In this document: in pieces, positions 9,942 to 32,684 of the stretch
Numbering within the stretch: the first letter of the stretch is position 1
Layout of the letters: every line of letters begins with the position of its first letter
From: a virus
Reading direction: 5' to 3' (one strand)
DNA: 64,000 nucleotides
Virus record (IMG/VR): IMGVR_UViG_3300042511_000879
Location: 124,001 to 188,000 of that record
Program-made: the position numbers and the translations under genes
The notes under the pieces: generated by a model
Seen by the model: the letters and a program-made list of their open reading frames with translations, nothing else
Databases searched by the model: none
What the model was told of the DNA's origin: nothing

Positions 9942-9962
9942 TGTTTATTTTTATTATTTTTA

Positions 9963-10076
9963 AAAAGACCGGAGGATAGGGAGGGATACGAACATCATTT
10001 TTCCCGAAGGAACAGTTACGAACAACTATGTTCCCAAAGGAACAAGAACGGACTTCTACCTCCCTATCCTCCGACT
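9963..10076 (-). ncRNA. Multi-branched structured RNA element / possible large terminator
   Basis: Between two fibre genes. CGGAGGATAGGGAGG (minus strand, 10073-10059) pairs perfectly over 15 bp with 9984-9970, closing a junction that holds at least two hairpins: TGTTCC-TTTG-GGAACA (10044-10029) and TTCC-TTCG-GGAA (10012-10001, a C(UUCG)G-type loop), plus a weaker AGTT/AACT stem. The closing stem is followed by GTCTTTTTA. It could be an unusually elaborate intrinsic terminator, an RNA-processing site or a leader element. It is much more GC-rich than its surroundings. Confidence 0.7.
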
Positions 10077-10080
10077 TATA

Positions 10081-13000
10081 TTATGGTAAGTGAGTTTCAA
10101 ACATACATTTTAATACAGTTGGCACATGTAGCGGATTAATAAATGCACATGGATTACCATATAATGCACTTGCGGCATAATCTAACATGAAAGGCGCTTT
10201 ATGATGTATAATTTTAATAACTCTACTTAATGGTCCGGAAACAATTTCACCATAATGTAAACCCGTGACAGGATTAATTGGACCTGCATTTCCATCCCAA
10301 GCAACATATCTAAATGCAACATACATAGGAATATAAACTGGAGAATATGCAAATCTAGATGTAGGCAGATTCTTCTGGGAACGCTTATTTGCCGATGGTA
10401 CATAAGTATAATAGTCAGCGTCCTGTCCTGATTGATCACGATACTTTACTAAAAACTCTTGCCATCTTCCTGAAATCATCGGAGCTAAATTTATATATTG
10501 GTTATGACCTGTTACTTCAAAATGATTAGGTCTATCAACTCCTATAAACCCGGTTGTGATATTATTCTGATGATTTCCAGATCGGTTCCAATAGTTATTT
10601 CCCCATGCAGGATATGGAAAACTTCCATTAGGGTACCATGGCGCCGGTACTATATAACCTCCACCTGGACGATAATTTGGTTTCTTATTTTTCTTTCTAT
10701 AAAGAACCATTTCTATATATATATTATCATATACATTAAATACTTCCGATGACAAATCTTGTGTAATTGCGTATGGTGCAGAATCTAATGTTAATACGCT
10801 TCCGGCGGAATTAGTTACCATATTAATGGAATTAATTACTATAGGATCACCTAACTTAATTGATGGCACTGGCAAATTTCCTTTACCAATTGTCCCTTTT
10901 TCTCCCATCGGTCCAAAAACCAAATTTATTAACTTTTTGGTTGATGATACGTAATAAAGACTAGAATCAAGATACAATGGAGCTCCAATTACTCTTGATA
11001 CAGTTCTTTGTACTACTCCATCTTTCCAATATCTTATATTATAACCATCATATGTTATACTTAATACGGTATTTGCGAAAGTTCCTCCATAAGTTATTGC
11101 ATCTCCATTAATATCAACAGTGACACTTCCATTTTCAATTATATAAAGATCACCTGCTGCGCAGTACCAACAATAATCGATACTAGTATAACTACTATTG
11201 GCTGTTGGATCGCTATTTAATCCAACCATAAGTTGTTCACCAGTATTACTTAATTGAGTTGATACATAAGCTCCTCTAGTATATCCTTCTAAAGAATATA
11301 CTTGTCCATCCCATTGAGCATCATTACCTGTTGCTTTATAGAAAGTATTTGAATTTTCTGCATAAGTTACTCCGCCATTGAATAATGGTGTCCAATTTGA
11401 TGAACCTCTAAAACCTTGGAAACCTTGGGCTCCTTGTATTCCCTGAGCACCTTGGAAACCTTGAGCACCTTGTATTCCTTGAGCACCTTGGAAACCTTGA
11501 GCACCTTGGAAACCTTGGGCTCCTCCGAGTGCAATACTACTCCTAAAACCAACAGTCCCATCACTTTCTTTTACAAGAATATCGGTTGTTGTTCCGGCTG
11601 GAACAGTTGTAATTTTAAGTTTTGCTCCTGTTGTAATGTTTTTGTCACCATCCCAAGTAAACGGTTTTTCAATTTCGCTACCTAGTCCTTGATCACCCCA
11701 TCTTGCACTTAAAAGTTTAATTGACGAAATCCGAATTGGAGCCGGAGTTGTAGCTGTAAGTGTTAAACGAGAATATGCATCTCCGCCATACCAATTAACA
11801 TAAAACCACGCAGCGATTGCATTATGATTATTTGTCGAAGTATGTCTTACTATCCAATTTATATTATCTGCAGAAGTTTCATATACAACATTTTTTATTG
11901 GTGCTGTAGCTGTATAAGTTGAACCAATAACTAACCATTCTCCTATTGACCACTCCATTCCTGTCCAATTCCATCTTACAGAAGTTACTGTAACTCCATC
12001 AGCAACTTCGATTGTTTGATTTTCTTTTTGCGCAAATACTTCTTTATTAAGCGTTGCTGCATTATATGTTACATTATTAGATGAAGTTGAAAATGTTGGT
12101 GAAAACCTAGAAAATGCAAATAAGTCATGCCATAAATAAGGTGATATTGGTGTTTGAGCTACTTGTGTCGTATCACTTGTTATTACCTTATTTGTTAATG
12201 TTCCGTTTTGTTTAAAATTATCAATTCCAAGTGCTATAATAGAACCAGCTCCATTAACTAGGTCAGTTCCATTAAATGTTAAATTAGCTTCAGCATTAGC
12301 AGTATTTGTACCACCATCTGAAGTTAAAACTCTATTATCTGATGGGTTTGTTATTGTTGTAAATCCAGGTCCTTGGAAACCTTGAGCGCCTTGGAAACCT
12401 TGGGCTCCTTGGAAACCTTGAGCACCTTGGAAACCTTGGGCTCCTTGTCTACCTTGAGCTCCTTGGAAACCTTGGGCACCTTGGAAACCTTGAGCACCTT
12501 GTATTCCTTGGGCTCCTTGGAAACCTTGAAAACCCTGGGCTCCTTGTATTCCTTGGGCTCCTTGGAAACCTTGGGCTCCTTGTCTACCTTGAGCTCCTTG
12601 GAAACCTTGGGCACCTTGGAAACCTTGGGCTCCTTGTATTCCTTGGGCACCTTGGAAACCTTGGGCACCTTGGAAACCTTGAGCACCTTGTATTCCTTGG
12701 GCACCTTGGAAACCTTGGGCTCCTTGTATTCCTTGGGCTCCTTGTATTCCCTGAGCACCTTGAAATCCTTGGGCACCTTGAAAACCTTGGGCTCCTTGTA
12801 TTCCCTGAGCACCTTGAAAACCTTGAACACCTTGGAAACCTTGGGCTCCTTGTATTCCTTGAGCACCTTGAAAACCTTGGAAACCTTGGGCTCCTTGTAT
12901 TCCCTGAGCACCTTGTATTCCCTGAGCACCTTGAAAACCTTGGGCACCTTGTATTCCTTGAGCACCTTGGAAACCTTGAGCTCCTTGGAAACCTTGAGCA

Positions 13001-16000
13001 CCTTGGAAACCTTGGGCTCCTTGTATTCCTTGGGCTCCTTGTATTCCTTGGGCACCTTGGAAACCTTGTATTCCCTGAGCACCTTGGAAACCTTGGGCTC
13101 CTTGTCTACCTTGGGCACCTTGAAAACCTTGGGCTCCTTGTATTCCTTGGGCTCCTTGGAAACCTTGGGCTCCTTGTATTCCTTGAGCACCTTGAAAACC
13201 TTGGAAACCTTGGGCTCCTTGTGGTCCTTGTTCTCCCATTGGTCCAAAAACAACATTCTTTAAACCATTAGGTGTACCATTAGTATATGATATTGTACGG
13301 AAGAAAGTAGAATCAAAATATAGAGCGTTACCTATTGCCCTTGCAACAGTTCGTTGTAGAATACCATCTTTCCAATATCTTACATTATAACCATCATATG
13401 TTATTTGTAAAATAGTATCTGATGTATATGCACCTAAAGCAACTATTACACCTCCACTTTCATAGATTTCTACACTATTGTATTCAGTGACATACCATGC
13501 ATAATTAATACCTGGAAAACTAGGCGATGCAGAAGGATTATCACTTAAACCAAATAGTATATAATTAAGATTTGATTGTGGTTGAGCCGATACATAACAT
13601 CCTCTAGTATAACCCTCTAATGAATATACTTCAGCATCAAAAATATCATCGTTACCTATTGCTTTATGAAATATATTTGAATTTGCACCATATACTGTGC
13701 CACCATTAAAAACAGGTGTCCAATTTGCTACTCCTCTAATTCCTTGGAAGCCTTGAGCACCTTGGAAACCTTGGGCTCCTTGTATTCCCTGAGCACCTTG
13801 AAAACCTTGGGCTCCTTGTATTCCCTGAGCACCTTGAAAACCTTGGGCTCCTTGTATTCCCTGAGCACCTTGAAAACCTTGGGCTCCTTGTATTCCTTGA
13901 GCTCCTTGAAAACCTTGAGCACCTTGAAAACCTTGGGCACCTTGGAAACCTTGAGCACCTTGTATTCCTTGAGCACCTTGAAAACCTTGTGCTCCTTGTC
14001 TACCTTGTGCTCCTTGTATTCCTTGAGCACCTTGAAAACCTTGAGCACCTTGAAAACCTTGTGCTCCTTGTATTCCTTGAGCACCTTGAAAACCTTGGGC
14101 TCCTTGTATTCCCTGAGCACCTTGGAAGCCTTGAGCACCTTGAAAACCTTGAAAACCTTGGGCACCTTGTATTCCTTGGGCACCTTGAAAACCTTGGGCT
14201 CCTTGTATTCCCTGGGCACCTTGAAAACCTTGGGCTCCTTGTATTCCTTGAGCACCTTGGAAGCCTTGAGCTCCTTGTATTCCTTGAGCACCTTGAAAAC
14301 CTTGGGCTCCTTGTATTCCTTGAGCACCTTGGAAGCCTTGAGCACCTTGAAAACCTTGAAAACCTTGGGCACCTTGTCTACCTTGGGCTCCTTGGAAACC
14401 TTGGGCTCCTTGTATTCCCTGAGCACCTTGAAAACCTTGGGCTCCTTGTATTCCTTGGGCACCTTGGATTCCTTGGGCACCTTGTATTCCTTGAGCACCT
14501 TGTATTCCTTGAGCACCTTGAGCACCTTGGAAACCTTGAGCACCTTGTATTCCTTGGGCACCTTGAGCACCTTGGAAACCTTGAGCACCTTGGAAACCTT
14601 GAGCACCTTGGAAACCTTGTACTCCTTGAGCACCTTGGAAACCTTGGGCACCTTGGAAACCTTGGATTCCTTGGGCACCTTGGATTCCTTGGGCACCTTG
14701 TATTCCTTGAGCACCTTGTATTCCTTGAGCACCTTGTATTCCTTGAGCACCTTGGAAACCTTGGGCACCTTGGAAACCTTGAGCACCTTGGAAACCTTGG
14801 GCACCTTGGATTCCTTGGGCACCTTGTATTCCCTGGGCACCTTGTATTCCCTGGGCACCTTGGAAACCTTGGGCACCTTGGATTCCTTGGGCACCTTGGA
14901 AACCTTGAGCACCTTGTATTCCTTGAGCACCTTGTATTCCTTGAGCACCTTGGATTCCTTGAGCACCTTGTATTCCCTGGGCACCTTGTATTCCTTGGGC
15001 ACCTTGGAAACCTTGAGCACCTTGTATTCCCTGGGCACCTTGTATTCCTTGAGCTCCTTGGATTCCTTGAGCACCTTGGATTCCTTGAGCACCTTGGATT
15101 CCTTGAGCACCTTGGATTCCTTGAGCACCTTGGATTCCCTGAGCACCTTGTATTCCTTGGGCACCTTGTATTCCTTGAGCACCTTGAAAACCTTGTGCTC
15201 CTTGTATTCCTTGAGCACCTTGAAAACCTTGAGCACCTTGAAAACCTTGTGCACCTTGAAAACCTTGAACACCTTGGAAACCTTGGGCTCCTTGTATTCC
15301 TTGAGCACCTTGAAAACCTTGGGCTCCTTGTATTCCTTGAGCACCTTGTATTCCTTGAGCACCTTGGAAACCTTGTACTCCTTGAGTTCCTTCAATACCT
15401 AATGATGTTACAACATAAGAATAGTATTGACTACCTTCTGTATAAAAAGTAACAGGATGATTACCTGAAGATTGATCGACTACATAGACATTAACAATCA
15501 TTCTATCCGTAGGATCAATTTGATATGATGCAGGTATTACTAAATCTACGTAATTTTCAACTGGTATAGTGGATTCAATCCAACCTATAAGTACTTGATT
15601 TGTTGATATTGGCGCTGCTGCGTATGGTGTACCGGTACTATCTGCTAGTTGTATAGTACAGAATGTATCTGTATTAAAACCAGTTGCTCCTTTTAAGAAA
15701 TGTAAATGAAATTTTTGAGGTCCTGGTGGAATAACATTAACTCCTAATCCACTTGCATCAGTAATATATGTTTGAACTAATACTGGAGTTGTTCCAGTAG
15801 TTGTTACTGTAATAGTTTGAACCGATCCAGTGGTTGGTAATGTACCTATTTGTTTATATTCTAAAGGTGTCTGTGTTACTGATTGATTAAAATAGTATAT
15901 CTGTCCGGATGAAACGCCTAATGGACCTTGGTCACCTTGAAAACCTTGAGCTCCTTGTATTCCCTGAGCACCTTGGAAACCTTGGGCACCTTGAAAACCT

Positions 16001-17172
16001 TGGGCACCTTGAAAACCTTGAAATCCTTGGGCTCCTTGTATTCCTTGGGCACCTTGAAAACCTTGGGCACCTTGAAAACCTTGAAATCCTTGGGCACCTT
16101 GAAAACCTTGGGCACCTTGAAAACCTTGAAATCCTTGGGCTCCTTGTATTCCCTGAGCACCTTGGAAACCTTGGGCACCTTGAAAACCTTGGGCACCTTG
16201 AAAACCTTGGGCACCTTGAAAACCTTGAAAACCTTGGGCACCTTGAAAACCTTGAAAACCTTGGGCTCCTTGTATTCCCTGAGCACCTTGGAAACCTTGG
16301 GCTCCTTGTATTCCCTGAGCTCCTTGTATTCCCTGAGCACCTTGTAATCCTTGGGCTCCTTGAAAACCTTGGGCTCCTTGAAAACCTTGTATTCCCTGAG
16401 CACCTTGAAAACCTTGGGCACCTTGTATTCCCTGGGCGCCTTGAAATCCTTGAGCACCTTGTATTCCTTGAGCACCTTGTATTCCCTGAGCACCTTGAAA
16501 ACCTTGGGCACCTTGGAAACCTTGGGCTCCTTGAAAACCTTGAGCACCTTGAAAACCTTGTATTCCTTGGGCTCCTTGTATTCCCTGAGCACCTTGAAAT
16601 CCTTGGGCTCCTTGTATTCCCTGGGCGCCTTGAAATCCTTGAGCACCTTGAAATCCTTGGGCTCCTTGTATTCCCTGAGCACCTTGAAAACCTTGGGCAC
16701 CTTGGAAACCTTGGGCTCCTTGTATTCCCTGGGCACCTTGTATTCCTTGGGCTCCTTGTATTCCCTGAGCACCTTGAAAACCTTGGGCACCTTGGAAACC
16801 TTGGGCTCCTTGTATTCCCTGGGCGCCTTGGAAACCTTGAGCACCTTGAAATCCTTGGGCTCCTTGTATTCCTTGGGCACCTTGAAAACCTTGGGCACCT
16901 TGAAAACCTTGGGCGCCTTGGAAACCTTGAGCACCTTGTCTACCTTGGGCACCTTGTATTCCTTGAGCACCTTGAAATCCTTGAGCACCAGTTCCTTGGA
17001 AGCCTTGAGCACCTTGGAAACCCTGAGGACCATTAGCTGGCCCTTGAGGACCTTGAGGTCCTGTGTCAACAGTTCCACCTAGATTTTTTAGTGAACCATA
17101 TTTGTCATGGACGAATACCGGACCTAGGTCTGTGCTGGAATTTCCATATTTATCTAGTCTTTGTATGTTCAT
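10081..17172 (-). CDS. Giant collagen-like multidomain fibre protein
   Basis: 2363 residues. Collagen-like G-x-Q segments: about 35-425, 593-1145, 1311-1602 and 1883-1922, built from GAQGFQ and GAQGIQ hexapeptides, with Gln nearly always in the third position and hardly any Pro. Between them: a beta domain at 423-592 ([12 protein letters not shown]), a lectin-like domain at 1146-1310, a unique domain at 1603-1882, a second lectin-like domain at 1923-2085 and a C-terminal domain at 2086-2363 with GWPxx/His-rich stretches. Collagen-like fibres in phages form long trimeric stalks. The DNA repeats leave several frames open on both strands. The start overlaps the next gene's stop by 4 nt. Confidence 0.9.
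12366..13225 (-). repeat. 18-bp collagen-coding repeats, array 3
   Basis: In-frame tandem 18-bp units coding [12 protein letters not shown] and variants such as GRQ, about 290 codons. Units differ at synonymous sites, and the pattern continues without spacers. Confidence 0.9.
13737..15390 (-). repeat. 18-bp collagen-coding repeats, array 2
   Basis: The longest array, about 550 codons of [12 protein letters not shown] units. Near 15050-15150 five almost identical units occur in a row, which suggests recent slippage expansion. Confidence 0.9.
15930..17050 (-). repeat. 18-bp collagen-coding repeats, array 1
   Basis: About 375 codons of [12 protein letters not shown] units with occasional GFQGFQ. 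It begins after a short non-repetitive N-terminus and a GPQGPQGPA lead-in, the only proline-containing triplets. Confidence 0.9.
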
Positions 17173-17468
17173 GAAACTTCGGCTGATATGTAGTATGTGG
17201 TATTGGGTTGTGTAGATTCTAGGTGAATATAATCACCTTTTGCAAATTTATATTGAGTAACATCTCTAACTGAATCTCCATCATTTAAGATAAACTTGTA
17301 AAGAAGCGTTTCAATAGCCCCTGCAGCAGTATCAAGTCGGCTAACTGTAAGATTGTAACTCGCGGTTATATTATTGATAACTAGAAGAGAAATTATCATG
17401 CTATCGTAGGCGCAATTTATTTGAGTTCCGCCTGGAATATCAATGGTACCTTGAAATACTAAATTCAT
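17169..17468 (-). CDS. Small beta-rich hypothetical protein
   Basis: 99 residues, predicted mostly beta (alternating hydrophobics, [10 protein letters not shown] at the end). Start at 17468 with an AT-only leader. Overlaps the giant fibre start by 4 nt, so probably a co-translated accessory or base of that fibre. No family recognised. Confidence 0.7.
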   Translation of the reverse strand: MNLVFQGTIDIPGGTQINCAYDSMIISLLVINNITASYNLTVSRLDTAAGAIETLLYKFILNDGDSVRDVTQYKFAKGDYIHLESTQPNTTYYISAEVS

Positions 17469-17480
17469 AATTTTTTCTTT

Positions 17481-17496
17481 TTTATTATATATTCGT
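17481..17496 (-). promoter_or_regulatory. Late-type promoter motif
   Basis: Minus strand reads ACGAATATATAATAAA about 15 nt before the 17169-17468 gene; this would transcribe the giant fibre operon. A short AGGAG-TCC-CTCCT hairpin lies just upstream. Confidence 0.4.
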
Positions 17497-17522
17497 AAAT
17501 CAGGAGGGACTCCTTATAAGGG

Positions 17523-18134
17523 TTAAGAGTCTATTGAAGATTTAATTTCTTTTTGTAGGGAATCTACTGTGCTTTTATCCTTTTTTAAGGATTTTACAAG
17601 GATTCTTTTAATATCAGAATCTGCCATTTTAATAAGTTTTTCAGTGGACTTCATTCTGGCATCAAGTTTAACAGTACTTACGTATTTTTGAAGAGTTTCA
17701 TTTTCCTGTCCAATAGCATCCATGTTATCAATGATTGCATTTTCTAGTTCGGTTAATGAATCCTCTTTAAGTTGAAATGCTGCACTACCGCTATTAGTAC
17801 TACTGCTACTATAAGAACTTGGACGTGATGTTTCAGAATATGTATATGGGTCCTCTTCTGCTGAAGCTTCAGCTTCAGCTTGAAGTTCCTCAATTTGGTC
17901 TTGTTCAATTTTTAACTTTCCAAGTTCAACTCTAACGTCAACCAATTTATCTGCTAATTGTCGAAGTTTTCTCTTTTTCATTGGATTTAAAAAAATACCC
18001 TTAATCCAATCAAAGAAACCCTCATTTATAAGTTGATTGATTTGTTCTTCATTCAGTTCGCCTTCATGAATTCTATGGATTTCTTGAACCATATCGCTCA
18101 TTTGGTACTCTTCAAATAATTTAACCTTTTTCAT
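17523..18134 (-). CDS. Leader-bearing putative capsid-internal protein
   Basis: 203 residues. Begins MKKVKLFEEY, identical in its first nine residues to the 23548-24018 product and close to other members of the downstream leader family. Possible prohead-protease sites ([LI]-x-E before G/A/S) are I22-H-E24|G and I36-N-E38|G. The rest is charged and helical with a Ser-rich linker at about 105-120 and coiled-coil propensity. The stop of the metallopeptidase gene is directly adjacent, so the two are probably co-expressed. Function unknown; packaging into the head is inferred from the leader only. Confidence 0.75.
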   Translation of the reverse strand: MKKVKLFEEYQMSDMVQEIHRIHEGELNEEQINQLINEGFFDWIKGIFLNPMKKRKLRQLADKLVDVRVELGKLKIEQDQIEELQAEAEASAEEDPYTYSETSRPSSYSSSSTNSGSAAFQLKEDSLTELENAIIDNMDAIGQENETLQKYVSTVKLDARMKSTEKLIKMADSDIKRILVKSLKKDKSTVDSLQKEIKSSIDS

Positions 18135-18797
18135 TTAGAATTGTGGAATTGCTCCAATTTTTTTAGCACGTTTTCTCCAAAGATCGACCACTTGTGTTCT
18201 CTCCGGTTGACTTAAACCTTGAGTATCTAAGTATCTATTTAGGGTATTTATCATTATTTCTCCGCGAACTTGAGATTCTAATCGGAGTCCTTCTAGATTT
18301 GCATCAATTTCTTTGGGTAGGATGAGGTAGGTTGATTGAGGTAAGAGCCCTTGGTGTATCAATTCACGTTCCATAGAATCATCACCAGATGGCTTGCCAG
18401 GTATGTAGTTTCCAATGCTCTCACCACCTTGGGTTATATGTTCTACTTCATGTCGGACAACATCAATAAGATGGAAATATAGTTCACTAAAGTATTCAGG
18501 AAGCCAAGCGGCTTCGATACCAAAATCAATAATTATAAATGGCGTTTGAGAGTTGTCATCATTGTCAAAGTCTCGACTATCGGCTCCTGTTGAATCAAAT
18601 GATGTGAATCCTAGGATTGGTTGTCCATTAACACTTCCAAAATAAATTGTAGCATCAATGTCGAATTCGGGTCCATTCGCTTTTACTTGTTTAAATAAGG
18701 TTGAATGGGTTTTGCCTAAATGATAGTCCAAATTCCATTGAGCAAAAATATCATTTGCTAACCTTAAAGACATTCGGTCAAGTGTTTTTTGAGTCAT
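18135..18797 (-). CDS. Predicted zinc metallopeptidase (HExxH)
   Basis: 220 residues. A clear zincin motif HEVEH lies at about residues 115-119 (DVVRHEVEHIT), and about 50 residues later KEIDANLEG offers an Asp/Glu third ligand. The region between is Gly-rich. Catalytic activity is therefore likely but the target is unknown. It is immediately upstream of a leader-bearing protein gene (1-nt spacing), so a role in processing or delivering that protein is possible. Its own N-terminus (LDRMSLRLAN) resembles that of the 22573-23082 product (LDRISLNIAL). Confidence 0.7.
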   Translation of the reverse strand: MTQKTLDRMSLRLANDIFAQWNLDYHLGKTHSTLFKQVKANGPEFDIDATIYFGSVNGQPILGFTSFDSTGADSRDFDNDDNSQTPFIIIDFGIEAAWLPEYFSELYFHLIDVVRHEVEHITQGGESIGNYIPGKPSGDDSMERELIHQGLLPQSTYLILPKEIDANLEGLRLESQVRGEIMINTLNRYLDTQGLSQPERTQVVDLWRKRAKKIGAIPQF

Positions 18798-18850
18798 ATT
18801 CTTGTTTAATATTATATGAACCCATTCTAAAAAGTTTATCTATATTTTAT

Positions 18851-18866
18851 AAAATTATATACGAAG
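18851..18866 (-). promoter_or_regulatory. Late-type promoter motif
   Basis: Minus strand reads TCGTATATAATTTTAT 55-70 nt before the metallopeptidase start, a variant of the late-type core. Confidence 0.3.
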
Positions 18867-18872
18867 ATATTT

Positions 18873-19931
18873 TTAAAAACCACAGCTCGCACTAGTGTCT
18901 CCAATAACACCTTCTGTTGATATTTCGTATAAGCCACCGTCCCAATAAGTTCCAGACGCAGGATAGGCTTGAGTTTGATTTAATCCAAAATAAAGACCAC
19001 CTCCATTATAAGGAAATGTTAAAAGAGAATTAGTATATACGATATCTCCAGTAGAAAGTGCAGCTAGACTTTTTGCAGCAAAAAGAGGTTCAGTGACTTC
19101 ATACGGAGGAGCGCAGCCTGGGTTAGTTTCAAAAACGTTGTCGGATCCGCCAATGGGAGTCCTATAAAATTGATAAAATGCAGGAACTTCCAGTCGATTA
19201 ACTAATTTAATGTTACCTTGAGGCACTGAATTAACCTTGAATGTTGCACCCGGTGATATACTTAATACATATTGTCCTAATCCAGGAGTTCCAGTTTCTA
19301 CTACAAGGTATGGTGCCGTTCCGGAAATGTTCAATGCAGTGTAAAGAATAGAATCAGTAGGTGGCGATAGATATAAATAATCATAATTATAATCTACAAG
19401 TGCAAGTCGGATATCCGGTTGTGTGTTAAACGCATCAATAGCATTGGCATTTAAAGATATAGCATTCCATCCATCGGTTGGAGCTACTGGAGTTGCAATA
19501 TAATCGGTAGTATTACCGCTCATTGATCCACCTGTGTTGTATCCTGATATTTGGAAGAAATCAGCTGCTGAAATATTTGTGGTAGTTGATGGTTTATCTG
19601 CCTGCACTACCATAATATTATTAGCTAGATCTCCTCCAAAGTGTACCCATAATGTTGCAGAAGTGATTTGAGTTGTAAAGCCACTGTCCATTGTAGAAAA
19701 TGCCATAAAGTATCTACTAATTGCTGCTCGCCAATTGCCGAATGTGAAATTGTTCCAAGAAGCTCCAATGGAGTCTTGTACATCTTGATTAACTCTAGCA
19801 ATAGGAAGGTTACCATATCCATTATCACGGTTAGATAGCCATTGATTTTGGTCAAATTGTTCTCCAAAGGAATCTGAATCTTCAACTAAAATGCTTCCTC
19901 TAGTTGTCGCTGATGTTATATTATATTCCAT
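18873..19931 (-). CDS. Putative fibre or baseplate-associated structural protein
   Basis: 352 residues. The first ~190 residues resemble DNRLRE-like carbohydrate-associated beta domains (SRYFMAFST, TSATLWVHFGG, and a late PYLVVET). The second half has a FKVNSVPQGNIKLVN segment and a Gly/Tyr-rich C-terminus. No transmembrane segment or signal peptide. It overlaps the collagen-like fibre gene by 1 nt, and the two probably form part of the same appendage. Family assignment is tentative. Confidence 0.65.
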   Translation of the reverse strand: MEYNITSATTRGSILVEDSDSFGEQFDQNQWLSNRDNGYGNLPIARVNQDVQDSIGASWNNFTFGNWRAAISRYFMAFSTMDSGFTTQITSATLWVHFGGDLANNIMVVQADKPSTTTNISAADFFQISGYNTGGSMSGNTTDYIATPVAPTDGWNAISLNANAIDAFNTQPDIRLALVDYNYDYLYLSPPTDSILYTALNISGTAPYLVVETGTPGLGQYVLSISPGATFKVNSVPQGNIKLVNRLEVPAFYQFYRTPIGGSDNVFETNPGCAPPYEVTEPLFAAKSLAALSTGDIVYTNSLLTFPYNGGGLYFGLNQTQAYPASGTYWDGGLYEISTEGVIGDTSASCGF

Positions 19932-22567
19932 TATTCTAAAATTGATGATATTAGTTCAACCCAAGTTTGATCTGGATTAAAATAGATTGTTGATGTATTA
20001 TCTATATTATGTCCAATAATTCTAACTACATTACCTGAAGCAGTTGGGGCTGTTGCTGTAAATAATCCATCACTGGTAGACATGTATAGGGTTGATCCTG
20101 ATATTGAAGTAGTGTATGATGCTGCATTATATCTAGCATATCCTCTTATTAACATACCAGCTGCTGGATTTGTTCCGAGTGCTATAGCAAGCATTCCTAA
20201 CGAATGCGTAGTTGATGTTGAATTTGTTAATGTCCATGTTAATGATGAATTTAGGTAATATAATGATCCTGGCGTAAATCCTTGAGCACCAGTTCCAAAA
20301 TATGCAATTTCACCAGATGATGCAGGAGCAGCAGCAGGAGGTACATAATTTCCTCCGGTTCCTTGATAGCCTTGATATCCTTGAAAACCTTGAGCACCTT
20401 GGAATCCTTGAGCACCTTGGAAACCTTGAGCACCAGTTCCTTGGGCACCTTGGAAGCCTTGAGCACCTTGGAAGCCTTGAGCACCTTGGAAACCTTGAGC
20501 ACCTTGGAATCCTTGAGCACCAGTTCCTTGAGCACCTTGGAAACCTTGAGCACCAGTTCCTTGAGCACCTTGGAAGCCTTGAGCACCTTGGAATCCTTGA
20601 GCACCTTGGAAACCTTGAGCACCAGTTCCTTGAGCACCTTGGAATCCTTGAGCACCAGTTCCTTGAGCACCTTGGAATCCTTGAGCACCAGTTCCTTGGG
20701 CACCTTGGAATCCTTGGAAACCTCGATCACCTCGATCACCGGCTCTACTAAATGTAACCATTGCTCCTGTTCCTGGTACCATGGTACCAATACCTCCTAT
20801 ATAACTAACAGTTATGTAACCCATATTACTTACGCTAGTAGAAAGTATTTGATAATCTGCGTAATCGGAGGTTCTTCCTAAACGGCTAATTCGTAAATTA
20901 CCTTTAATTGGGTTCGTACTAGTACCCAATGCAGTTACCCAGCTAGTGGAACTTGCACCATCAGCATCAAAATTACTAGTAAAGATAGTTGTTGTAGTTG
21001 CAAATGTAGTGCCATTAAATCCAATACCCCCGGGCGGTGGAGATTGAAAAGTACCATAAAAATTAACAACAAACCTTAAACTATCTCCTCCATAATTTCC
21101 AAAACTTCCTTGTATTCCCTGAAAACCTTGGGCTCCTTGGAATCCTTGATCACCTTGGAAACCTTGGGCTCCTTGTATTCCTTGAGCACCTTGATATCCT
21201 TGATATCCTCGATCTCCAATGTCTCCTGTTCTTTGGAACGTAATATAAGCACGTTGGTCTGGAGGTGCAGTTCCACCAACAGGGCTAGAAATAAATGCAA
21301 TTGGAACGTCGAAATGGTCATTATGTTCAGTATGGTTACCTGTTATATTAAAAAGTGCATAAAGTAGAGGGTCAGTATATGAGGTTATTTTAAACGTACC
21401 TTTAATTTGAGAAGATGAGTCATCAATTGTCTGTAAGAATGATTGGATATCCACTGAGTTATAGTCTAAATATGAAATATACATCATTGTACCAAATTCA
21501 TTGATTCTTACATGTCCTGCAGTCAAATTTGTAGGATCAGTTGTAATATCATCATAATAAAACTCAAACGTTGCTCCACCAAAAGATCCTGGTTCACCTT
21601 GGTCTCCTTGTGTTCCTTGAAATCCTTGTACACCTTGTGCACCTTGAAATCCTTGAAATCCTCGAGGACCTGTTTTTGCATATGATACTATAAGTTCAGT
21701 ACCTACAGGCCAAGTTGTTCCAATAGCAGATACAGTTCCTCCAACGTATGATAATTCAATAGTACTATAAGTTCCAGTGCTTCCACCAGTTATTGTATAG
21801 TCTAAATATTCAGTTGTTCTGCCTGGTTTGGTAATTCTTAAACTTCCTCCAAGTGCAATCATTGAAGTAAACCATGCAGTTGCATTTGCATTATCATCAT
21901 CCGTATTGCTTGCAATAATAGTAAGAGTTGGGCTAGGAAGTGTTGTTGTATTACTAAATGTAATTGCTCCAAATCCCGCAGTAACTCCATTATAACTTCC
22001 TACTAAAAATCTTAAACTATCTCCACCATAATTTCCTACTGATCCTACAGATCCTTGATGTCCTTGTCTACCTTGAAAACCTTGATAACCTTGATAACCT
22101 TGGGCTCCAGGAGTTCCAGGGCTTCCAGGTGTACCTACAGCTGAAGCTCCTTGTGTTCCTTGAAAACCTTGCGTTCCTTGTCGACCTTGAGCACCTTGAA
22201 AACCTTGGAAACCTTGTCTACCTTGAGCTCCTTGTCGACCTTGAAATCCTTGGTCTCCTGTAGTTGTAGCAACTGCAGTAGGTACCCATACCCTGTCGCC
22301 AACGAGTGCTCCAGCTAGGATTAAAGCAGTATCACCCGAGGTTACAATATATAATTTAAGTACCTTTTCAACATCATTATCAATATCGATAGTTCCATCA
22401 TTATTAGTTCCCATTACTCTGAATCCATGAATAACTTGTCCAATTAAGTCCAAGTTGTAATCCATTTCTGGGTGAAATAAGGCTCTTCCAAGTTCTCCTG
22501 GATATAAAGGGTTATATTTACCCAATGGTCCTCGTTCTTCAGAATTTTGTAAATTATCTTGTGGCAT
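19931..22567 (-). CDS. Collagen-like fibre with three repeated beta domains
   Basis: 878 residues. After an N-terminal ~100-residue attachment domain come short G-x-Q collagen stretches that separate three related beta domains: residues about 177-300 (GGDSLRFLVGSY), 328-450 (GGATFEFYYDD) and 492-607 (GGDSLRFVVNFY). Each has a central (L/I)RI or FKI strand followed by DPL/GRTT. A longer collagen segment with [11 protein letters not shown] units runs from about 610 to 742, then a C-terminal globular domain. Such beta domains embedded in collagen stalks are known from other marine and T4-like phage fibres. The upstream leader contains TATAAATA, the T4 late-promoter core. Confidence 0.85.
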   Translation of the reverse strand: MPQDNLQNSEERGPLGKYNPLYPGELGRALFHPEMDYNLDLIGQVIHGFRVMGTNNDGTIDIDNDVEKVLKLYIVTSGDTALILAGALVGDRVWVPTAVATTTGDQGFQGRQGAQGRQGFQGFQGAQGRQGTQGFQGTQGASAVGTPGSPGTPGAQGYQGYQGFQGRQGHQGSVGSVGNYGGDSLRFLVGSYNGVTAGFGAITFSNTTTLPSPTLTIIASNTDDDNANATAWFTSMIALGGSLRITKPGRTTEYLDYTITGGSTGTYSTIELSYVGGTVSAIGTTWPVGTELIVSYAKTGPRGFQGFQGAQGVQGFQGTQGDQGEPGSFGGATFEFYYDDITTDPTNLTAGHVRINEFGTMMYISYLDYNSVDIQSFLQTIDDSSSQIKGTFKITSYTDPLLYALFNITGNHTEHNDHFDVPIAFISSPVGGTAPPDQRAYITFQRTGDIGDRGYQGYQGAQGIQGAQGFQGDQGFQGAQGFQGIQGSFGNYGGDSLRFVVNFYGTFQSPPPGGIGFNGTTFATTTTIFTSNFDADGASSTSWVTALGTSTNPIKGNLRISRLGRTSDYADYQILSTSVSNMGYITVSYIGGIGTMVPGTGAMVTFSRAGDRGDRGFQGFQGAQGTGAQGFQGAQGTGAQGFQGAQGTGAQGFQGAQGFQGAQGFQGAQGTGAQGFQGAQGTGAQGFQGAQGFQGAQGFQGAQGFQGAQGTGAQGFQGAQGFQGAQGFQGYQGYQGTGGNYVPPAAAPASSGEIAYFGTGAQGFTPGSLYYLNSSLTWTLTNSTSTTHSLGMLAIALGTNPAAGMLIRGYARYNAASYTTSISGSTLYMSTSDGLFTATAPTASGNVVRIIGHNIDNTSTIYFNPDQTWVELISSILE
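20365..20735 (-). repeat. Collagen-coding repeats
   Basis: In-frame units coding [11 protein letters not shown] and GFQGAQ, about 120 codons. They leave the opposite strand open as well. Confidence 0.85.
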
Positions 22568-23472: not shown

Positions 23473-23522
23473 CATTGGGTCTTTTTAGTCTATAATATAT
23501 ATCAAACTAAAAAGACCCAATG
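23473..23522. repeat. Perfect 16-bp palindrome with promoter motif in the loop
   Basis: CATTGGGTCTTTTTAG (23473-23488) is the exact reverse complement of 23507-23522; the 18-nt spacer contains the late-type motif GATATATATTATAG on the minus strand. Confidence 0.85.
23489..23506 (-). promoter_or_regulatory. Late-type promoter motif inside palindrome loop
   Basis: Minus strand TTTGATATATATTATAGA, 25-40 nt before the XhlA-like gene. Transcripts starting here would lose the 5' arm of the palindrome. Confidence 0.4.
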
Positions 23523-23547: not shown

Positions 23548-24018
23548 TTATTTATATAACTTTGCAGTAAAGTTACGGGCTCCTCTTGGAAGATTCTCGC
23601 CGTGAGGTCCTTTTGCTTTATAATCTTGTAGTAATTTAATGGCCTCTTCAGGTGATGTTGCTTCAACTTCCCAATCCCATTCCATTCCATTCGTATCATC
23701 GAAAAATACTGTGTAAATACTTTTCTTTGCTTCATCTATTCCAGAGCCAATTTCAGGAGTTCCATAGTGTGCAATCCATTCTTCTCTAGTCATGTTAGCA
23801 GCTTGAGCCTGCATTCCTAAGAAATCATATTCATGCATAATTGTTTCAGATTCTGTAACTTTATCATAAAGTTCAGTATCTCCATTCCATTTCCAATCAG
23901 CAGCATCAAAATCTTTAAGTTTCTTAGCTTTTTGATATTCTGAAGACGATAAATGGTCAGCATTAAGATTTATAGCACCTTCGCCAATAAACTCTTCGAA
24001 TAATTTTACTTTTTTCAT
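23548..24018 (-). CDS. Leader-bearing putative injected protein 7 of operon
   Basis: 156 residues. Leader MKKVKLFEEFIGE|G: Glu13 followed by Gly, a candidate prohead-protease cut. A second candidate site is I94-D-E96|A, which would release a ~60-residue C-terminal module (KKSIYTVFFDD, then a helical EEAIKLLQDYK). The middle region has several aromatic and acidic residues. Last gene before the terminator at 23508-23530. I recognise no enzyme family. Confidence 0.8.
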   Translation of the reverse strand: MKKVKLFEEFIGEGAINLNADHLSSSEYQKAKKLKDFDAADWKWNGDTELYDKVTESETIMHEYDFLGMQAQAANMTREEWIAHYGTPEIGSGIDEAKKSIYTVFFDDTNGMEWDWEVEATSPEEAIKLLQDYKAKGPHGENLPRGARNFTAKLYK

Positions 24019-24025
24019 ATCTTTA

Positions 24026-24832
24026 TTAATTTTTTGGCCAGATCATTAGAGTTCCTGGATCGTTCCATTCTAACCACCAACCTGTTTTTTCAACTGTTGT
24101 TCTAAACTGTTTTAGTACTCCATTAGCATATTTTGATGAGTTGCTATAGTAATCAAAAATTGGATTACCTCCAAGTTCTTCTCCATTATCACCTGCGATC
24201 CAAATTCCTTCAGTTTGTCCGTTGAATTCTTCAGAAGTTCGGACAGTTCTAAGTTTGTATTTAGTTTCTAATAGGTTCATCAATTCGTCTCTAGTAGAAT
24301 CTTTTGCCTCATTCATAAATGATTCTGTAAGATTACCATCCTTGTCTATGGCATCTGAATAAAGATATTCTCCTTTGCCATTGTAAGTAACTGTTTTTGC
24401 TACATATTCTTTTGTCTCAGGATTCCAATAATGAGTTTTACCACCAGGTTCTGTCATTTTTTTCAGGACTCCATTTCTAGCATTACTAATTAGTGTTGCA
24501 TTAACCTTTGCAGTTAAGGTGTCGTGATTTGTTAATTTATCTTGGGAGGCTGCTGCTAAGGCTTCATTAGTAACTGATTCATTCCAAACAACCTGTCCTC
24601 CAGCATCTTCAATATGAAACTTGGCTCTTGGAAATTCTTTTTTAAGGGCTTCATATTTTGCAGGGATCAAGTCTTGAATTTTAATATTGTTCGACTGTCC
24701 AACTACTTTATTATACTCAATGGCTACAATCGACCATGGTCCACCATCTCCGGCTCTAACGCCTTTCATCATTTTACCCCAAGAAGTTGTGGCTTCTGCG
24801 ATATATTGTTCAAATAATTTTACTTTTTTCAT
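24026..24832 (-). CDS. Leader-bearing putative injected protein 6 of operon
   Basis: 268 residues. Leader MKKVKLFEQYIAE|A (Glu13). Internal sites that fit the same rule: T88-N-E90|A, L168-T-E170|S and M173-N-E175|A. They split the chain into roughly 77-, 80- and 93-residue modules. The last module (DELMNLLETKYKLR...GWWLEWNDP) resembles small soluble phage domains but I cannot name it. The start overlaps the upstream stop by 4 nt (ATGA type). Candidate polyprotein packaged in the capsid. Confidence 0.8.
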   Translation of the reverse strand: MKKVKLFEQYIAEATTSWGKMMKGVRAGDGGPWSIVAIEYNKVVGQSNNIKIQDLIPAKYEALKKEFPRAKFHIEDAGGQVVWNESVTNEALAAASQDKLTNHDTLTAKVNATLISNARNGVLKKMTEPGGKTHYWNPETKEYVAKTVTYNGKGEYLYSDAIDKDGNLTESFMNEAKDSTRDELMNLLETKYKLRTVRTSEEFNGQTEGIWIAGDNGEELGGNPIFDYYSNSSKYANGVLKQFRTTVEKTGWWLEWNDPGTLMIWPKN

Positions 24833-25194
24833 AGTGAATAAAAAGGTCCTTTGTTTATTTTTTTAAGATATGTCATTTCAGAGTCAGTCAATTTAGATGC
24901 AATTAACTTTTGCCATTGTCCTCTTTGTTTTGTACGAGGTAGTAATAAAAATTGTTTAATGTCCTCATCACTTTCTAGACGTGAAACAATTTTAGTAACG
25001 GCAGCATCCGATTTCCATTTTTTATATTGGTCTTTCCAAGACGTTGAGTTTTGAAAGTCTTGTCCTGCGTCAGTTCCTAACCACATTGCAAAAATCCATG
25101 GAGAAAACCATGTAAGTCCCCAAGCAACTGGTAAAAGAGTATCTATTAGATTAGCCTCGTTAACAAATTCTTCGTATAGTTTTACATGTTTCAT
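24829..25194 (-). CDS. Leader-bearing putative injected protein 5, hydrophobic
   Basis: 121 residues from the ATG at 25194, which overlaps the preceding stop codon as ATGA; an ATG at 25200 would add two residues. Leader MKHVKLYEEFVNE|A (Glu13). Directly after the leader is a hydrophobic Trp-rich segment (LLPVAWGLTWFSPWIFAMWL), likely membrane-active or membrane-inserting; the remainder is basic and helical. A hydrophobic packaged protein could act at the host membrane during or after DNA entry (inference). Confidence 0.78.
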   Translation of the reverse strand: MKHVKLYEEFVNEANLIDTLLPVAWGLTWFSPWIFAMWLGTDAGQDFQNSTSWKDQYKKWKSDAAVTKIVSRLESDEDIKQFLLLPRTKQRGQWQKLIASKLTDSEMTYLKKINKGPFYSL

Positions 25195-25958
25195 TTCCAT
25201 TTTAAGTTTAATTCATCAGTCATTGCATCCATTAAATCATTAAATTTAGACGGATCTTTCATTACTGCTTTTATCTTAGTTTTTATCTCATCATCAGATA
25301 GTTTCAAATTTCTTACCCAACCTTTAGCATCAGCTAGATTCATTGGGTCTTTAAAGAAATCTTTTATATTGGTAGATTCGTTAACTGTAGATTCATGAAC
25401 ACCTGGTCCATTTTCTATTTTCTCTAATGAAACCCAATATACTTTATCATTTCCGTAATTGTCTACAAAACTGGATTCTACGCCTGTCCATCTTTTAATA
25501 AATTTACCTAAACCTGATTGAGGTCCTCCGTATTTATCGTCTTTTACTTTAACCATTAAATATTCCTCATTACTTGAGGGTCTCTTTGATGGGGCCTTAA
25601 ACTCTACAACATTGAATTGTTTTCTGATTAAAGTTTCCAGTTTTTTAATATCGCTATCAATTCCATTATTAGATTCCTTAATTGGAATTTCCGGCATGTA
25701 TTTATATTTTTGGTATTGATTGTTTGAAAGCTCTGTAGCCTTAATGTACTTTTCTAACTGATCGACTGTATTAAATATACGTCCACCTGCATCAATATCA
25801 TAACCTTTGTAGTATTGGTTATATTTGGCAGCAAGTTTTCCACCATTCATTTTCTCCCATTCTTTCTTAAAAAGAATTTGGTCGTTTCCAACAATTTCAT
25901 TTGGAAATACATCCTTACCTTCAGTAATGTACTGCTCGAATAATTTTACTTTTTTCAT
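25191..25958 (-). CDS. Leader-bearing putative injected protein 4 of operon
   Basis: 255 residues. Leader MKKVKLFEQYITE|G (Glu13). Internal candidate sites V187-H-E189|S and V192-N-E194|S precede a compact helical C-terminal module of about 60 residues (NIKDFFKDPMNLADAKGWV). The N-terminal module contains GYDIDAGGRIFNTVDQLEKYI. No catalytic motif recognised. Sits in the middle of the seven-gene operon with overlapping or near-overlapping neighbours. Confidence 0.8.
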   Translation of the reverse strand: MKKVKLFEQYITEGKDVFPNEIVGNDQILFKKEWEKMNGGKLAAKYNQYYKGYDIDAGGRIFNTVDQLEKYIKATELSNNQYQKYKYMPEIPIKESNNGIDSDIKKLETLIRKQFNVVEFKAPSKRPSSNEEYLMVKVKDDKYGGPQSGLGKFIKRWTGVESSFVDNYGNDKVYWVSLEKIENGPGVHESTVNESTNIKDFFKDPMNLADAKGWVRNLKLSDDEIKTKIKAVMKDPSKFNDLMDAMTDELNLKWK

Positions 25959-25967
25959 ACTAATGAA

Positions 25968-26342
25968 TTATACTCGAGAAACCCAAGTATATATGTTTTT
26001 GTTAGGAACTCCTAATAGAGTATCTCGAACTTCCATTCTAATTAAATAATCTTTATCTGTTTTACCATCAATAAACTTACAAGTGATTACATCACCGGTT
26101 TTAGCTTTTGATAGGTCCAAAGATGCAATGTCTCTAACACTGAATCCTGCTGATTCAGGTGATTTACCTTTCTCCCAGAAACTAACTAATGCCTGTGCCG
26201 CTTTAGTTGAATCATTATTTGCTTTTACAGTATTGTTTGAACCAATACTTGGTATGGTAACTTCTTCCCAGTAGGTTGCACCACTCATTTTCTCTTTTTT
26301 TGATTCATTTACAAATCCTTCGAATGTAGATATGTGTTTCAT
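25968..26342 (-). CDS. Leader-bearing putative injected protein 3 of operon
   Basis: 124 residues from the ATG at 26342, which is 1 nt after the upstream stop and begins the leader MKHISTFEGFVNE|S (Glu13). An in-frame upstream start at 26429 would put the leader inside the protein and overlap the neighbour, so I reject it. After the leader: a soluble alpha/beta domain with GDVITCKFIDGKTDKDYLIRMEV near the C-terminus. Function unknown. Confidence 0.78.
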   Translation of the reverse strand: MKHISTFEGFVNESKKEKMSGATYWEEVTIPSIGSNNTVKANNDSTKAAQALVSFWEKGKSPESAGFSVRDIASLDLSKAKTGDVITCKFIDGKTDKDYLIRMEVRDTLLGVPNKNIYTWVSRV

Positions 26343-26343
26343 A

Positions 26344-26814
26344 TTATTGTACTTGTATATTTGTTCTAATTGATAATCCTGAATAACCATTCCAGATTCC
26401 AATGTTAAAGTCTGGTATAATTTTTTCAATTTTCTTTAAATTACCAATATGTATTGCGGTCATTGGTAATTCTATAAACCAAACTCCATAATTTGTAGTT
26501 GCAGTTAATTGATATTTTTTCATACCAATTCCAATAAGACTATCAATTATCTTTTGAACCTCTTCTGGATATACTTCAGACTTTGCCTCGTTTGTAAGAC
26601 TTTCATTTTCATTCCAAATAGTTTGTAACCAAGCCTCTAAACTTTTGAGTTCTTTAACTGACTTTGGTTTGCCATATTCGTCCATAAAAGCCTTTCTGAA
26701 TCCCGTGAAAGAATCTGCCTCTTGAGCCATGATATGAATATCTCCAATACTGGATTCATAAATAAAGGATTGAGACTCTCCTAAGAACTCGTTAAATAGT
26801 TGCATATGTTTCAT
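26344..26814 (-). CDS. Leader-bearing putative injected protein 2 of operon
   Basis: 156 residues. Leader MKHMQLFNEFLGE|S (Glu13; L-G-E|S fits the T4 gp21 rule). An internal T74-N-E76|A follows a WNENESL stretch and is followed by a second ~80-residue module (EVYPEEVQKIIDSLIGIGMKK) that looks like a separate alpha/beta fold. Function unknown. Confidence 0.8.
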   Translation of the reverse strand: MKHMQLFNEFLGESQSFIYESSIGDIHIMAQEADSFTGFRKAFMDEYGKPKSVKELKSLEAWLQTIWNENESLTNEAKSEVYPEEVQKIIDSLIGIGMKKYQLTATTNYGVWFIELPMTAIHIGNLKKIEKIIPDFNIGIWNGYSGLSIRTNIQVQ

Positions 26815-26816
26815 GA

Positions 26817-27503
26817 TTATTCTATTGATGTTACATCTTTTTCTAAGTTTTCAGTTGAAAACTCGATAGGTAATGAAACGTAACTCTTTTTAGTATCGCC
26901 ATAAGGGGCTGCAAAAATCTTTCCGGAAGAGATTCCAGAAGTTTTAGTAACTTTCCATGTTTCACCATCTTTAAAGTTTAGAATAGTACCAACTTTAATG
27001 TCTTTAACATTGATTCCTTCGCTAACTTCTGATTCATTAACTTCAAATCCATCTGATTGGATTGCTTTCTTAGCCTTACGCAATTCAACTGCATTTTTGG
27101 CTTTAACCATCATCTCTTCAGAATCTATTCCAGGCTCTGCAATCGCATCAACTCCAGCATCATGTAAAATGTTTTGAACGTATTCTACGTCATCCTCATC
27201 GGTATTGTAATTAAAAGAGAATGAATATTCTTTAGCTTCATTTAAGTTTCTTTCAAAGATTAAACCCGGGTCTTGTAATGCACTACTACCAGAAATATTT
27301 TTGGCAATAGCCATAATAACATCTTCATATCTTTTTTTAGTTAATGATTCGCTATGTTCTGTATTTAATACAGGTGCAATCTGTTTAACTAATTTATCTA
27401 TTAAAGATGTATCAATTTTAGACTTCCTTGAATTAATACTTTTATTAGAAACTGATATCATAGCTTCATTTAAGAATTCTTCGAATAATTGTGTATATTT
27501 CAT
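26817..27503 (-). CDS. Leader-bearing putative injected protein 1 (promoter-proximal)
   Basis: 228 residues. Leader MKYTQLFEEFLNE|A (Glu13). Internal sites L86-N-E88|A, V154-N-E156|S and V159-S-E161|G divide it into three modules: a helical one (15-88), an alpha/beta one with DVEYVQNILHDAGVDA (89-156; resembles ACT/ferredoxin-like small folds only loosely), and a beta module with GTILNFKDGETWKVT (162-228). First gene of the operon, directly after a late-type promoter motif. Confidence 0.8.
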   Translation of the reverse strand: MKYTQLFEEFLNEAMISVSNKSINSRKSKIDTSLIDKLVKQIAPVLNTEHSESLTKKRYEDVIMAIAKNISGSSALQDPGLIFERNLNEAKEYSFSFNYNTDEDDVEYVQNILHDAGVDAIAEPGIDSEEMMVKAKNAVELRKAKKAIQSDGFEVNESEVSEGINVKDIKVGTILNFKDGETWKVTKTSGISSGKIFAAPYGDTKKSYVSLPIEFSTENLEKDVTSIE

Positions 27504-27522
27504 ATTATTAATATATTATATT

Positions 27523-27536
27523 TTGTTTATATATCA
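27523..27536 (-). promoter_or_regulatory. Late-type promoter of the leader-protein operon
   Basis: Minus strand CTTGATATATAAAC; its TAA is the stop codon of the deoxyribonucleotidase gene. About 20-30 nt before the first gene of the seven-gene operon. Confidence 0.45.
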
Positions 27537-29755: not shown

Positions 29756-29768
29756 AGTTTATATATCG
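29756..29768 (-). promoter_or_regulatory. Late-type promoter motif overlapping a stop codon
   Basis: Minus strand GGCGATATATAAAC; TAA is the stop of the 29759-29953 gene. About 35 nt before the small acidic gene. Confidence 0.35.
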
Positions 29769-29953
29769 CCTTTAATTCGGTCTTCCCAGTAAGATGCATA
29801 ATCTGCAACAGTTCCTTTGAATTGTCGAATTTTTACCAGTCTTGGGTCTTCGCCATCTCCTGGTTCGACTGGATTAATTTCATTATTAGGTTGAATATCC
29901 TCTAAGCCGATTGTTTTGGCCTCGTCAATTGTAAATTCTTTAAATGTTTTCAT
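29759..29953 (-). CDS. Small leader-bearing putative capsid-internal protein
   Basis: 64 residues. Begins MKTFKEFTIDE|A: an N-terminal leader of the same type as the seven-gene operon, with I9-D-E11|A as candidate cut. The mature ~53-residue part is acidic, with a PVEPGDGEDPR linker and a helical end (DYASYWEDRIKG). Own late-type promoter motif upstream. Lies outside the leader-protein operon. Confidence 0.7.
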   Translation of the reverse strand: MKTFKEFTIDEAKTIGLEDIQPNNEINPVEPGDGEDPRLVKIRQFKGTVADYASYWEDRIKGDI

Positions 29954-32285: not shown

Positions 32286-32684
32286 TTACAATATGTCTTT
32301 ATATGAATCTGTTTCTTTTAATATTGCGTCAAATGAGATTAAATTATCAACCCTAACTGTATTATCTTCAAGGACATGTCCTATCATCCTAGGTCTAAAT
32401 ACAATATCATCTAATAGAGTTTTTAACTCCTTTCCCCTGGGCGTATCGAGGACTTTGATTTCTGCAAAAAGAGTATCTCCTTCCACTTGAAGGTTTTCGA
32501 CTTGATGCGAAACTCTTTCTAAAGAGGTAAAAGAAGTACTTTCAGGATAACCAAGTTCTCCAAACATTTGAACTCCATTCGAAACTTTCTGTTTAAATTG
32601 AGCAACCATTTGTTCTAAACATTCATCAGTGTACATTCTACCATTAAGATTAACCGTGTTGGATTTTAATACTGATGTTTTCAT
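32286..32684 (-). CDS. Degenerate gp21/S80 prohead-protease-fold protein
   Basis: 132 residues. NTVNLNGRMYTDECLEQMV, FGELGYP and the following VENLQVEGDTLFAEIKVLDT align with T4 gp21 (VVNRNKRLYP, ALGELNHP, VYGRARVIE). The catalytic His of the NHP motif is replaced by Tyr (GYP), and the region that should hold GVSSRG reads FRPRMIG, so it looks catalytically dead and is shorter (T4 gp21 has about 212 residues). It may be a regulator or scaffold-binding paralogue. Neighbouring genes are unknown. Confidence 0.6.
   Translation of the reverse strand: MKTSVLKSNTVNLNGRMYTDECLEQMVAQFKQKVSNGVQMFGELGYPESTSFTSLERVSHQVENLQVEGDTLFAEIKVLDTPRGKELKTLLDDIVFRPRMIGHVLEDNTVRVDNLISFDAILKETDSYKDIL

Follow-up and report, generated by a model that had tools for sequence, protein, structure and literature searches.

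In a 64,000-nucleotide stretch of DNA from a large T4-like phage (hereafter the window, bases 124001-188000 of the 236,071-bp virus record IMGVR_UViG_3300042511_000879), seven consecutive minus-strand genes encode proteins that begin with variants of one 13-residue leader. This leader is very probably a capsid-targeting sequence, by which the proteins would be packaged into the phage head, trimmed by its protease and delivered with the DNA as an exchangeable set of effectors. What can be read from the sequence is the leader itself, cleavage-like sites, a protease gene, a late promoter motif, a leader on the prohead-core gene, an exchange of modules and tagged homologues of anti-defence proteins; from these we infer what the seven window proteins do, as well as targeting, cleavage, retention in the head and injection. 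A preliminary description of this DNA had already suggested capsid targeting and gp21-type processing, a proposal that is strengthened by the presence of an S77 protease together with a gp23 capsid protein, the match to functional residues of the T4 IPIII signal, the core-gene leader, the late promoter and the exchange of leaders and linkers. In what follows, coordinates without a prefix are those of the window, G000 denotes the window phage's own genome, and other G and L labels are sections of the window phage or of related viral records.

Seven adjacent genes with a common leader

All seven open reading frames (ORFs) were found where the preliminary description had placed them (23548-27503), and the promoter and terminator that it had attributed to the operon have plausible counterparts on either side of it, a late promoter motif at 27535-27527 and a terminator-like hairpin at 23527-23515. 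The elements are listed in the order of transcription, a slash marking a predicted cut.

27527..27535, minus strand: late promoter motif GATATATAA, 32 nt ahead of leader gene 1
26817..27503, minus strand: leader gene 1, 228 amino acids (aa); MKYTQLFEEFLNE then A; three modules, with sites NLNE/A (E89) and E162
26344..26814, minus strand: leader gene 2, 156 aa; MKHMQLFNEFLGE then S; two modules split at E76
25968..26342, minus strand: leader gene 3, 124 aa; MKHISTFEGFVNE then S
25191..25958, minus strand: leader gene 4, 255 aa; MKKVKLFEQYITE then G; modular, with a site at E194
24829..25194, minus strand: leader gene 5, 121 aa; MKHVKLYEEFVNE then A; hydrophobic stretch behind the leader
24026..24832, minus strand: leader gene 6, 268 aa; MKKVKLFEQYIAE then A; three modules split at E90 and E175
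23548..24018, minus strand: leader gene 7, 156 aa; MKKVKLFEEFIGE then G; two modules, with a probable internal site KVTE/S at residue 56
23473..23522, no strand assigned: perfect 16-bp inverted repeat at the operon end, overlapped by the terminator-like hairpin

Gene 5 starts at the ATG at 25194, not at 25200, and gene 3 at the ATG at 26342, its longest ORF opening at a TTG 87 nt upstream. The leader has the residues ascribed to it, namely [ILV] at position 11, Glu at position 13 and Ala, Gly or Ser at position 14 in 7/7 proteins each, so that its 13 residues end in [ILV]-x-E. The inverted repeat has an 18-nt AT-rich loop and exceeds an ordinary terminator stem in size.

The leader and the T4 capsid targeting sequence

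The leaders of T4 ipII and ipIII, as read from the T4 record, have the sequence MKTYQEFIAE/A. Mutagenesis of IPIII has assigned residues 4 and 7 to targeting, and residues 8 and 10 to processing (PMC9026906). Counting back from the cut, these four residues align with positions 7 (F/Y), 10 (F/Y), 11 (I/V/L) and 13 (E) in the leader of the window proteins, all of them among its conserved positions. The wider collection of leaders was gathered with a pattern that partly fixes these positions, which makes the window seven and the 25-26 leader genes of the genome a fairer view. The leader is thus a short N-terminal peptide with the targeting and cleavage residues of IPIII.

The same phage encodes a gp23-type capsid protein (G000:3819-5351, E 1.9e-42) and an S77 (gp21-type) protease (G000:5510-7432, L010:5510-7432, E 4.6e-13), which is fused to a long scaffold-like part and in which GELDHP and ISSR stretches can be read. 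The head genes follow a T4-like order of portal, small acidic core gene, protease and capsid. The prohead-core gene, located in the portal-protease interval, has this leader or a related one at its start in 11/11 orthologues (for example MKYVKLFEQFIKE, MKHIKLFEEFVSE and MKIIKTFEDFITE), and nine of the 11 have Glu at the cut. As for the capsid proteins, a conserved KLYE/D stretch lines up with LME/N of Sphingomonas phage PAU, whose capsid protein has been N-terminally sequenced, its length falling from 585 to 520 aa (PMC5646251); this published mature length fits a cut at LME/N within one residue.

Expression together with the late structural genes is suggested by the motif GATATATAA, which occurs 27 times on the coding strand of the phage genome and once on the opposite strand, 21 of the 27 copies sitting 12-48 nt ahead of a gene start. 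It precedes the protease, capsid (118 nt), sheath and tube genes and a tail-fibre gene, and likewise the window operon, other leader operons and two long polyprotein genes described below. Since structural and leader genes have this motif in common, the tagged proteins are probably made during head building. A T4-type late promoter, TATAAATA, showed no bias in strand or position and was rejected.

Two other proteins of this phage resemble parts of its head machinery. The DUF3008 protein at G000:37762-38538 (L011:17762-18538) has an internal KSFEQFINE/S and a GMGATALP...GSGD stretch closely like one that lies close to the N-terminus of the capsid protein in its mature form. The window itself encodes a second S77-like protein of 132 aa (32286-32684, minus strand; Pfam 5.9e-8, PHROG 1.2e-20), which recurs in the near-identical relatives G006 and G009. 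Because it has GELGYP in place of the GELDHP of the fused protease and is without the ISSR stretch, we regard it as a protease relative that has probably lost its catalytic activity.

Spread of the leader family

The pattern MKxxx[LT][FY]xx[FY]xxE is found at the first start of 16 of the 294 ORFs of the phage, compared with none in 300 shuffles of the N-termini. With internal starts included, the leader genes number 25-26 and cluster at approximately 24-25, 35-40, 44-47, 99, 122-123, 148-151, 205-207 and 218 kb of the genome. The notion of the leader set as a single operon thus holds for the seven adjacent genes but not for the family, which is genome-wide. One more member lies in the window.

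29759..29953, minus strand: further leader-like gene, 64 aa, MKTFKEFTIDE/A, with its own GATATATAA 12 nt upstream

At 17523-18134 (minus strand), MKKVKLFEEYQMSDMVQEIHRIHEGELNEEQINQLINEGFFDW forms a leader-like start without Glu13, and several xNE/x sites follow further in.

The preliminary description had proposed the leader pattern as a query for other phage genomes. At least 118 stretches in IMG/VR viral contigs match the leader DNA pattern, which gave no match in 84,980 bacterial and archaeal genomes, and the reversed-pattern control gave none in 28 leader contigs. As read from their sequences, dozens more proteins in related phages carry the tag.

Linkers and polyproteins

A point to be added to the preliminary description is that several window leader proteins are internally modular: it had missed cleavage-like sites such as ESVVNE/A, which divide long chains into modules. 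Those of the ESxx[NS]E type in the window are as follows.

27018..27035, minus strand: linker ESEVSE (E162) of gene 1, next residue G
26587..26604, minus strand: linker ESLTNE (E76) of gene 2, next residue A
25377..25394, minus strand: linker ESTVNE (E194) of gene 4, next residue S
24563..24580, minus strand: linker ESVTNE (E90) of gene 6, next residue A
24308..24325, minus strand: linker ESFMNE (E175), before the third module of gene 6, next residue A

The pattern ESxx[NS]E[AGS] occurs 12 times in the phage proteome, compared with 0.5 times in shuffles. Four of the seven leader proteins of the window operon, together with two long proteins of 1029 aa (G000:47431-50520) and 913 aa (G000:40119-42860), account for all 12 copies. 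Across 27 related records, it gave 54 matches, compared with one for the reversed control. Enrichment is confined to this specific linker, the general pattern [ILVMF]xE[AGSK] not being significantly enriched inside leader proteins. Both long polyprotein genes begin at the late promoter motif, and the 913-aa chain itself opens with a tag-like MNFDQFLNE/S. When orthologues of the 1029-aa polyprotein were aligned, whole modules were seen to be gained or lost at the linkers. No peptidase domain was matched in either polyprotein; these chains are likely cut by the S77 head protease. An AlphaFold model of the 1029-aa polyprotein, with a mean pLDDT of 50, was not used.

A conserved 429-aa protein at G000:45247-46536 (L012:5247-6536), also found in relatives, has a tag-like N-terminus (ILNFNRFITE/K) and a KTDGQN stretch resembling an RNA/DNA ligase motif. 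It adjoins a 623-aa NMNAT-like protein, the end of which consists of a linker and MTFEQFIN.

Exchange of tag and linker

We then compared the bodies alone, after removal of the tag and with a strict leader pattern, a looser one having caught a protease orthologue. Twenty leader families have homologues within larger proteins, and Glu is present at the projected cut (within one residue) in 17 of them, whereas random positions gave a mean of 2.3 and a maximum of 7 in 1000 trials. Three window genes illustrate this. The first module of gene 4 (25191) sits behind ESVVTE/ inside the polyprotein L274:8822-10972, whereas the third module of gene 6 (24026) and the second module of gene 7 (23548) are leader-tagged proteins in their own right in L279:3611-3934 and L108:135-479, respectively. 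In addition, L118:693-1337 fuses the middle module of gene 1 with a module of gene 2. An AlphaFold2 model of gene 6 has confident folds at residues 18-87 and 178-268, and low confidence at the leader and both linkers; a Foldseek search of the Protein Data Bank with this model returned nothing significant. By these comparisons, tag and linker appear interchangeable in front of homologous modules, those of three window genes included. We found no description of such a cassette exchange in the literature searched, coverage of which was partial.

These observations bear on whether the leader is a capsid signal at all, or instead a translation-start, stability or other sorting tag of one gene-expression class. 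The latter would suit a leader that is N-terminal in stand-alone genes and very uniform. However, its codons vary synonymously (F7, TTT/TTC 10/9; L6, TTA/CTA 11/8), which indicates that the peptide and not a copied piece of DNA is conserved, with selection acting on the peptide. Moreover, chains that otherwise differ have Glu13 or the linker Glu at homologous positions, the residues conserved in the leader are those with a function in the T4 signal, and the leader is also found on the prohead-core gene. We therefore regard a tag unrelated to the capsid as highly improbable.

Cargo of the tagged families

The tagged bodies fall into 112-120 families, which are very diverse, exchanged between phages and mostly without a known domain. 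Recognisable ones, which the preliminary description had missed, are Tad3, an Acb1-like 2H phosphoesterase, an NMNAT-like cytidylyltransferase, zeta/AAA kinase, GNAT, methyltransferase and ATP-grasp, to which PHROGs adds RNA ligase, polynucleotide kinase and a ParB-like nuclease. The window phage encodes a tagged Acb1-like protein (G000:204974-205540), which scores 31.2 bits against a Pfam cut-off of 27. In alignment with T4 Acb1, or 57B (PMC9117128), its HxT/HxT pairs fall on the catalytic tetrad and provide the 2H signature, although other 2H enzymes look similar. Tad3 (PF25185) lies above the curated cut-off in relatives (L278:9514-10293, 67.9 bits; L413:1240-2004, 70.2 bits), one relative having a leader-bearing Tad3 at 8.5e-19, and was not found in the near-identical records of the window phage. 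Tagged genes of the two kinds, Tad3 and Acb1-like, lie close together in G008 and G075. PADLOC, run on the leader proteins, gave weak single matches only.

Could the tagged proteins and polyproteins simply be prohead-core filler, which is chopped by the protease and leaves the head, with nothing being delivered? Most of T4 gp22 is chopped and lost from the head in this way, and gp22 has an ESTITE/S stretch. The prohead-core gene beside the protease is itself tagged, and a G004 gene soon after the capsid gene (L281:1067-2815) holds three ESVV[TN]E linkers, which give it the look of a head protein that has received extra modules. Furthermore, long propeptides of SPN3US are cut repeatedly (PMC10052503). 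Nevertheless, many of the tagged bodies resemble enzymes or inhibitors (the Acb1-like, Tad3, NMNAT-like, GNAT, methyltransferase, ATP-grasp and P-loop kinase proteins), and so many diverse, exchanging families fit the cargo of an arms race, not a scaffold. Filler is thus a quite improbable account of the family.

A further explanation, which we consider unlikely, is that packaging and trimming do occur but supply few true effectors, the tagged proteins serving mainly to condense or protect DNA or to assist the head. The majority of bodies have no recognisable domain, the end of a Dps/ferritin-like module was spotted by eye in L279:9934-11301, and T4 IPIII affects head assembly (PMC9026906). 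Against this, Acb1 and Tad3, families with established or curated anti-defence roles, share tagged operons.

Weighing capsid targeting and delivery

Several observations count against the reading of the leader as a capsid-targeting and delivery signal. The core gene of the window phage has kept the start MKIIKTFEEF and has no Glu at position 13. The bodies of the seven window proteins, leader removed, match no known family, as the preliminary description had said: Pfam and PHROGs gave sub-threshold matches only, which we did not use. Its suggestion that the set consists of anti-defence effectors gains direct support from the leader-bearing Acb1-like and Tad3 proteins, but not from the seven themselves. 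The rule of Ala, Gly or Ser at residue 14 applies to all seven and not to the wider family, where this residue is often K, E, D or N. K is found in 21 of 142 body clusters, or approximately 15%; a P1' specificity broader than the T4 rule is indicated. S77 was found in 12/12 leader contigs of at least 130 kb, compared with 4/8 neutral contigs of similar size, but this co-occurrence is modest evidence, S77 being common in large phages. Finally, the exact leader was not found in T4, PTm1, Lak-A2 or PAU, the last of which has a different form.

We nevertheless favour packaging, trimming and delivery, because this mechanism explains tag, core gene, promoter, linkers and cargo together. Late in infection, the leader proteins would be made from the late promoter, and the leader aromatics F/Y7 and F/Y10 would bind the prohead core. 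The gp21-type S77 protease would then cut after Glu13 and probably also at the internal [VILT]xE/[AGS] linkers, so that a multi-module chain would yield several small proteins within the head. Once mature, the modules would stay beside the DNA and be injected along with it into the next cell, where at least some of them (Acb1-like, Tad3) may blunt host defences. It also seems reasonably likely that, in large T4-like phages, one head protease serves as the hub of a plug-in delivery system, in which a domain would enter the virion behind the 13-residue tag or between ESVVNE-type linkers, and each injection would bring tens of separately acting anti-defence or take-over proteins.

If so, a sequence search could reveal which phage proteins accompany the DNA into the cell, since the tag is readable on tens of proteins per phage and on approximately 120 body families, nearly all uncharacterised. 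The tagged families would represent a reservoir of candidate inhibitors of bacterial immunity, which already includes two known kinds, and the linkers suggest a natural polyprotein strategy in which the chains are processed by a head protease.

Genome setting

The same gene is present at both ends of the virus record, which is therefore probably a complete genome with redundant ends. By capsid protein, the nearest named relatives are an uncultured 462-kb phage, Lak phages, Sphingomonas phage PAU and Tenacibaculum phages PTm1 and pT24, and the host likely belongs to the Bacteroidota; a near-identity DNA search among cultured phages gave no match. Adjoining the leader operon, 7239-22567 encodes very long collagen-like proteins (up to 2363 aa) with GFQGxQG repeats, which are probably tail fibres.

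Comparison with known systems

For decades, the targeting tag of T4 has been known as a feature of only a few proteins per phage, and the principle of a capsid targeting sequence combined with an S77 protease was established in that phage. In the literature searched, we found no account of a system on this scale, of its polyprotein form, of tag/linker exchange or of anti-defence families bearing the tag. As in T4 IPI, IPII and IPIII, the signal is a short N-terminal peptide with aromatics at P7 and P4, I/L/V at P3 and Glu at P1, the bodies behind it are diverse, and the genome encodes an S77 protease; T4 IPI* is an injected anti-restriction protein. In contrast to T4, the leader has 13 residues with a KLFE core instead of 10, at least 25 genes are tagged compared with three internal proteins and Alt, P1' extends beyond A/G/S, and multi-module chains have repeated internal sites.

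In the related gp23 phage PAU, 15 or more genes close to the head genes are tagged; by annotation, they include gp142 and gp154 ("internal capsid protein") and the scaffolding protein gp152, but the PAU leader is worded differently (MKTLTxLYE). Polyvalent proteins (Iyer et al. 2017, PMC5512222) similarly combine many domains per chain and are delivered with DNA against host defences; they often carry their own MPTase, whereas no embedded peptidase was found here. The inner-body and ejection proteins of phiKZ and SPN3US are head proteins cut after Glu by the prohead protease and ejected into the host. They belong to another capsid lineage and mostly have long propeptides, with no tag/linker cassette exchange described for them in the literature searched.

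As for the cargo, Acb1 (T4 57B, an anti-CBASS nuclease) and Tad3 (a Thoeris inhibitor) have counterparts here above the Pfam cut-off, with the HxT/HxT tetrad aligned in the case of Acb1. T4 Acb1 is without a capsid leader, whereas the Acb1-like and Tad3 proteins described here are tagged, which suggests that they are delivered with the DNA.

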